34,827 nt of DNA, from positions 1 through 34,827 of the forward strand of contig JAGHSV010000151.1 in NCBI GenBank assembly GCA_018065665.1, in the 5' to 3' direction. The notes beneath the pieces are model-generated. The model saw only the letters and a list, made by a program, of their open reading frames with translations, did no database searches and had not been told where the DNA came from. The position numbers were made by a program, and so were the translations under genes. This stretch comes from Candidatus Sodaliphilus aphodohippi (lineage in GTDB: Bacteria; Bacteroidota; Bacteroidia; Bacteroidales; Muribaculaceae). Below, one piece after another: positions 1,978-3,286 of the stretch; positions within the stretch are counted from its first letter, which is position 1, and each line of letters starts with the position of its first letter.

Positions 1978-2475
1978 TTAATATTCAATTTTATCAGTTT
2001 TTTCTGCCCATTTTTTGAAGTGCTCAATTGAATATGGGTCTTCTATATGCACACAAGGAATAGAACGGAGCAGATGTGGCTTTTCAATTTCCTGATAAAT
2101 GAAATTATCATCAAAATTTATATTGCGGGCGTCATTTTGGGTGTTGCCGTAATATATCCTTGACACACCAGCCCAATAAAGAGCACTCAGGCACATGGGA
2201 CATGGTTCACAAGAAGAATAAATCACACATCCTTCAAGTTTGAAATTCTTCCGTGATTTACATGCCATTCTGATTGCATTCACTTCGGCATGAGCAGTGG
2301 GGTCGTTATCGAGAGTAACTGTATTGCCTCCTGTAGATACAATCTCCCCATTTTTTACAATAACTGCGCCAAAAGGTCCACCACCACGGTCAATATTTGC
2401 ACTTGCAATATCACAAGCCATTTTCAAAAATCTCACATCGCCCTCGGTAATTTGATTTATTTCGTTTTTGTCCAT
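1978..2475 (-). CDS. Nucleoside/guanine deaminase (GuaD-like, CDA fold)
   Basis: Zinc deaminase motifs HAEVNAI and SSCEPCPMCLSALYWAGV; GGPFGAVIVK near the N-terminus and the FDDNFIYQEIEKP segment resemble bacterial guanine deaminases. Confidence 0.85.
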   Translation of the reverse strand: MDKNEINQITEGDVRFLKMACDIASANIDRGGGPFGAVIVKNGEIVSTGGNTVTLDNDPTAHAEVNAIRMACKSRKNFKLEGCVIYSSCEPCPMCLSALYWAGVSRIYYGNTQNDARNINFDDNFIYQEIEKPHLLRSIPCVHIEDPYSIEHFKKWAEKTDKIEY

Positions 2476-2522: not shown

Positions 2523-2553
2523 TTTGTCTTGTCACAAAATAATAGTACTTTTG
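2523..2553 (+). promoter_or_regulatory. Bacteroidetes-type promoter with no downstream plus-strand ORF
   Basis: TTTG (2523-2526), 19-nt gap, TACTTTTG (2546-2553). Confidence 0.55.
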
Positions 2554-2558
2554 TGAGT

Positions 2559-2625
2559 GTGTTTTTCATGGTATTAGATTTAAGGTTTGTGAAGGCTGTT
2601 GTGAAACATCCTTCACTTTTCTTTT
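2559..2625 (+). ncRNA. Candidate small RNA (about 65 nt) ending in an intrinsic terminator
   Basis: Starts a few nt after the -7 element at 2546-2553 and ends with hairpin GTGAAGG-C-TGTT-[GTGA]-AACA-T-CCTTCAC (2589-2616), then TTTTCTTTT. No plausible ORF inside. Confidence 0.45.
2589..2625 (+). terminator. Intrinsic terminator with GNRA-type loop
   Basis: GTGAAGG (2589-2595) / CCTTCAC (2610-2616), inner TGTT/AACA closing a GTGA loop, then TTTTCTTTT. The T-run is on the plus strand only. Confidence 0.7.
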
Positions 2626-2667: not shown

Positions 2668-3237
2668 TCATTTACGTTTAGGTTTATATCCACAAGTGCG
2701 ATAATTGCAGTGAACCTTACCCCGTATAATATTATTAAGTTTGGCTCTATTCAATTGCTTTCGAATTGGCGAAACATGATCTATGAATAATCTTCCATCG
2801 AGATGGTCAAATTCATGCTGAACCACACGGGCAAGATATCCTTCAATAGCCTCTTCGTGTTCTTCCCAATTCTCATCAAACCATTTTAGATTAATTTTTT
2901 CGATTCTCTTAACACCTTCATGAATGCCAGGAAGACTGAGACATCCCTCTTCTCGCGATATGGCATCTTCCTTCACGTCAATGGTTACTTCCGGATTAAT
3001 CAAAACCATTTTTCGCCCCTTCAGTTCGGGCATATCATCGGCAAGCACATCAACATCAATATATATCAAACGTATATTGATGCCGACTTGTGGAGCAGCT
3101 ATTCCGATACCGTCACTTGCATACATGGTATCCTTCATGTTTTTAATCAGCTTCAAAAGGTCAGGATAATCTTTTGTCACAGGCTCAGACTCCTTTCTAA
3201 GAACAGGATGTCCATATAAATAAATTGGTAATACCAT
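2668..3237 (-). CDS. def: Peptide deformylase
   Basis: Motifs GIGIAAPQVG, EEGCLSLPG and VVQHEFDHLDGRLFIDH. The likely start is the internal Met (MVLPIYLYGHPVLRKES); the ORF track begins at 3285. Confidence 0.95.
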   Translation of the reverse strand: MVLPIYLYGHPVLRKESEPVTKDYPDLLKLIKNMKDTMYASDGIGIAAPQVGINIRLIYIDVDVLADDMPELKGRKMVLINPEVTIDVKEDAISREEGCLSLPGIHEGVKRIEKINLKWFDENWEEHEEAIEGYLARVVQHEFDHLDGRLFIDHVSPIRKQLNRAKLNNIIRGKVHCNYRTCGYKPKRK

Positions 3238-3286
3238 AATTGTATCGTATTGATTACATATTATTTCTGCTTTCAAGATAATCATT

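Follow-up and report, generated by a model that had tools for sequence, protein, structure and literature searches.

Introduction

In Bacteroides thetaiotaomicron, the FopS family comprises 14 sRNAs of 65-70 nt, which have canonical sigma-ABfr promoters, a terminator hairpin, and a single-stranded 5′ seed (R1′) with the 70% consensus GTGTTTTTCATAGTATTAGATTTAAGGTTAACAAA (PMC11697453). One member, FopS-10, base-pairs with the start region of a susC mRNA and blocks its translation, a block that is relieved by the RRM-1 protein RbpB (PMC11697453). Conservation of FopS has been described within the Bacteroidaceae (PMC11697453). GibS (RF04182), a longer relative with two seeds, also carries the R1 seed.

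Here we analyze a unit in Candidatus Sodaliphilus aphodohippi that lies within a 34,827-nt stretch of DNA (contig JAGHSV010000151.1; hereafter the window). A sequence-only reading of the unit had proposed an independent small RNA gene between a deaminase gene and def. We find that the unit is very probably a trans-acting small RNA of the FopS family and, by sequence comparison, a predicted new member that falls in a new subtype and a new lineage. With this locus, a gut lineage of poor annotation gains an sRNA gene that is precise and conserved.

A full-length match to the FopS model

The sequence-only reading had suggested an Rfam search as one way to check the unit. In a sensitive scan of 401 bases, we obtained a full-length match to RF04319 (BTncRNA_FopS) at 2559-2626 on the plus strand (model positions 1-71 of 71, 54.2 bits, E-value of 2.4e-7), giving an sRNA of about 68 nt. 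Homology to the family is clear, although this score is 1.8 bits below the curated gathering cut-off of 56 bits, and a scan of the window at the gathering threshold returned no matches. The shortfall arises because the linker between seed and hairpin is mostly missing and because the hairpin differs from the Bacteroides type; the def-linked orthologs scored mostly 49-54 bits against the same model. The seed itself is intact: the first 29 nt of the sRNA (2559-2587, plus strand), which correspond to the single-stranded 5′ seed (R1/R1′), are all identical to the Rfam FopS consensus, and this seed (27-29 nt) is unpaired in the consensus fold.

The sRNA is thus like FopS of B. thetaiotaomicron in its length, its canonical promoter, its presence in more than one copy per genome, its 29-nt seed, and its single terminator hairpin with a GUGA loop. 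It is unlike FopS of Bacteroides in that the seed almost abuts the hairpin, with loss of the linker, and in the sequence of the hairpin. This near absence of a linker appears, from the alignment described below, to mark a def-linked subtype that is new here.

Because the R1 seed at the 5′ end of the sRNA is common to GibS, we considered whether the unit could instead be a GibS RNA. However, the GibS model gave only 33.6 bits, where its cut-off is 115, and requires positions past the terminator; GibS is about 142 nt long, has a second seed (R2) and uses a different promoter type, whereas the promoter in the window is of the canonical type. Assignment to GibS is therefore extremely unlikely, and we refer to the unit below as a FopS-family sRNA.

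Promoter, hairpin and neighborhood in relatives

The sRNA is preceded on the plus strand by a Bacteroidota-type promoter, with a −33 element TTTG at 2523-2526 and, after a spacer of 19 nt, a −7 element TACTTTTG (TAnnTTTG) at 2546-2553. The sequence from ∼2559 onward is GTGTTTTTCATGGTATTAGATTTAAGGTT, and it is followed by a hairpin at 2589-2616 (GTGA loop at 2601-2604) and by the U tract of an intrinsic terminator, TTTTCTTTTA, at 2617-2626 (positions 2617-2625 being TTTTCTTTT). Promoter, hairpin and tail were located where the sequence-only reading had placed them. A generic scan of the window for E. coli-type signals listed neither the promoter nor the terminator hairpin, as expected, since the promoter is of the Bacteroidota −33/−7 type and the stem is interrupted.

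To relate these elements to other genomes we used an alignment of 24 def-linked copies, comprising 23 genomes of the genus and Porphyromonadaceae bacterium UBA4277 (L047). The first 25 nt of the sRNA were invariant in all 24 genomes. The T, A, TTT and G positions of the −7 box were retained in 22-24 of the 24 orthologs, and a T-rich TTTG occurred at nearly the same offset as the −33 element of the window (offsets −38 to −35). The gene def (peptide deformylase; 2668-3285, minus strand in the window), identified by its open reading frame and synteny, lay downstream on the opposite strand in 24 of 24 copies, mostly within about 200 nt and tail-to-tail with the sRNA; the deaminase gene (1978-2475, minus strand), identified in the same way and head-to-head with the sRNA, lay upstream on the opposite strand in every copy where it was matched.

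The hairpin has arms of 12 nt that are 92% complementary, and its fold (−23.9 kcal/mol, z of −3.8) was more stable than that of 200 of 200 dinucleotide shuffles. Covariation analysis in relatives, another of the checks proposed for the unit, revealed compensatory changes: 7 of 11 pairs were changed on both sides while 95.9% of cells in the 24-copy alignment remained paired, and no shuffle of the alignment matched the hairpin in pairing, both-side changes or covariation score. As a control, sliding the structure by 1-3 columns reduced the paired cells to 40-62%. Such conservation and covariation mark a functional RNA. The sequence-only reading had also staked its small RNA on conservation of the promoter and hairpin in relatives, and both are conserved. 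Together with the end-to-end RF04319 match, the retention of promoter, seed, hairpin and neighborhood in 24 genomes argues for an independent small RNA gene.

An intergenic unit that is tail-to-tail with def could also be taken for part of a flanking gene (its untranslated region or an attenuator) or for a terminator of the convergent def, given that the hairpin could stop transcripts arriving from the other side as well. Both neighbors, however, are on the strand opposite to the sRNA, as the sequence-only reading had noted and the list of open reading frames bears out, and the unit has its own conserved promoter, while its seed is repeated in a paralog at an unlinked locus. We thus consider a role as a UTR or terminator of a neighbor highly unlikely in comparison with a free-standing FopS-family sRNA.

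The same alignment bears on whether the unit encodes a small protein. The statement in the sequence-only reading that no start-codon-led frame fits was too strong as worded, since an ATG at 2568-2570 opens a frame of 30 codons (MVLDLRFVKAVVKHPSLFFYTHLVVKQLYN); this ATG lies inside the conserved seed, and the first codons are retained in many relatives. What stands is that the frame is not conserved in length. Across the 24 relatives it measures between 6 and 50 codons, being broken after 6 codons in one, and in the window it reads through the terminator, whereas the changes in the hairpin track base pairing. Furthermore, the 70% consensus in B. thetaiotaomicron reads CATAG, with no ATG, and sORFs were excluded by the authors of that study (PMC11697453). 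A protein product accordingly has a negligible probability next to the sRNA.

One detail of the sequence-only reading was not borne out. It had described two outer arms, AGTGTGT and ACACACT, flanking the unit and had placed the second at 2627-2633, where it in fact occupies 2628-2634. Since ACACAC downstream of the hairpin was found in the window only, that is in 1 of the 24 aligned copies, the outer arms are probably due to chance. We rejected them as a structural part of the sRNA, given their absence from the other 23 copies and the position of the second arm 3′ of the terminator.

Further copies and the range of FopS

A paralog in the same genome (C113:772-841) scored 70.9 bits, above the RF04319 cut-off; it has the same seed with one inserted T and a terminator hairpin of its own (TTGGTTGTCGGGAGACAATCAA-TTTTTTTT). 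Including weak matches, the genome has few copies (one above the cut-off and the window sRNA just below it) compared with 12-15 in Bacteroides. A FopS match was found in all 37 genomes of the genus at E ≤ 1e-3, some of these being weak, and in 68 of 295 Bacteroidales genomes, from 23 families. These matches indicate a predicted range extending well beyond the Bacteroidaceae, which is new here.

Two tandem arrangements of FopS-like units, with two units each, were observed at C220:7204-7364 (L012 from 1501) and C153:4701-4851 (L013/L014). In both, the first unit has the seed TTTTCATAGTATTAG and the second GTATTAGAAGGTTAATTAGTTAAGCAATCCCCG, and all units are under the Rfam cut-off. It is possible that these are two-seed sRNAs; a search of L012 and L014 gave no GibS match at an E-value of 0.01.

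Candidate targets

Because the anatomy of the sRNA is the same as that of FopS in B. thetaiotaomicron, we would infer that it acts in the same way. By analogy with FopS-10, the seed would pair with target mRNAs across their start codons, and this pairing would block ribosome entry and turn translation off. Thus, the 5′ end probably pairs with start-codon regions of mRNAs and blocks their translation, with targets that are predicted only. The complement of the seed, CCTTAAATCTAATACCATGAAAAACAC, contains a start codon and resembles a translation start region.

A pattern search of the genome for CCTTAAATCTAATACCATGAAAAACAC with up to 3 mismatches returned, besides the sRNAs themselves, four sites that coincide with the start codon of a long ORF and one further similar site that was not at the start of a long ORF. 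From their translations, we read the four ORFs as a sigma-70 factor, an amidase-like protein, a helicase and an AAA ATPase. Duplex energies at the four sites were −15.2 to −17.5 kcal/mol (z of about −3.0 to −3.8), with the start region of the sigma-70 gene, TGAAATTTAATACAATGAG (L121, C174:13263), being a near-complement of the FopS seed (−17.5 kcal/mol) and that of the amidase gene reaching −17.1 kcal/mol. These sites are leads only, because they were chosen by complementarity and because start regions are AT-rich.

Only 1 of 8 SusC-like start regions paired well with the seed (L106, −16.5 kcal/mol), and no enrichment was detected when the 8 SusC-like starts were compared with 28 genes of the window (means of −10.3 and −9.2 kcal/mol, p-value of 0.25). 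Since SusC starts as a group pair no better than genes of the window, a role in PULs is unsupported here.

FopS and RRM-1 proteins

A profile search for RRM_1 (PF00076) found no match in the genome of the window, which is 87% complete, or in 36 congeners (0 of 37 in the genus), and none in UBA4277; a very divergent RRM could escape this search. The same search was positive in 198 of 295 Bacteroidales genomes, with E-values of 1e-15 to 1e-27 in other members of the order. In the family to which the window belongs, each of the 6 genomes sampled (its own genome and 5 of other genera, the latter 99% complete) had FopS and lacked RRM_1. The whole lineage thus seems, as far as profile searches indicate, to be without an RbpB-type protein, which is new here and was unexpected. 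A literature search on RRM proteins in this lineage returned nothing relevant.

Across the order, RRM_1 was missing in 28 of the 68 genomes with FopS, and the two were not associated (Fisher p-value of 0.11, which is descriptive because the genomes are related). Given that FopS is present in genomes without RRM_1 and shows no association with it, FopS seems able to persist without RbpB. Near-complete genomes of family f22 (G057 and its relatives), and likewise of f59 and f91, have FopS above the cut-off, and RRM_1 was found in no sampled FopS-bearing genome of these families.

The window genome thus differs from the Bacteroides setting of FopS in lacking a detectable RRM_1 protein, as well as in its unsupported SusC targeting. 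In this lineage the sRNA would dispense with RbpB and other RRM-1 proteins, acting by itself or assisted by some other RNA-binding protein. We tentatively suggest, with somewhat less than even confidence, that throughout one Bacteroidales family FopS operates in the absence of RbpB and of any other RRM-1 protein, in a circuit that would be older than, or independent of, RbpB; FopS would function alone or with a different RNA-binding protein and would control genes outside the PULs, of which the primary sigma factor and a cell-wall amidase are possible examples. The persistence of FopS sRNAs where their known protein partner is absent is the part worth following: because RbpB counteracts FopS in Bacteroides, a lineage without RbpB offers a natural test of FopS alone.

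We also considered whether the unit is a mobile repeat and rejected this, as the seed was met again only within FopS copies and none of the phage or plasmid records spans the whole unit; a literature search on the exact motif string gave no match. FopS-seed-like stretches were observed on the phage records MT836359 and PQ571285 and on plasmid records of Bacteroides, Phocaeicola, Parabacteroides and Prevotella, in agreement with the phage link suggested previously (PMC11697453).
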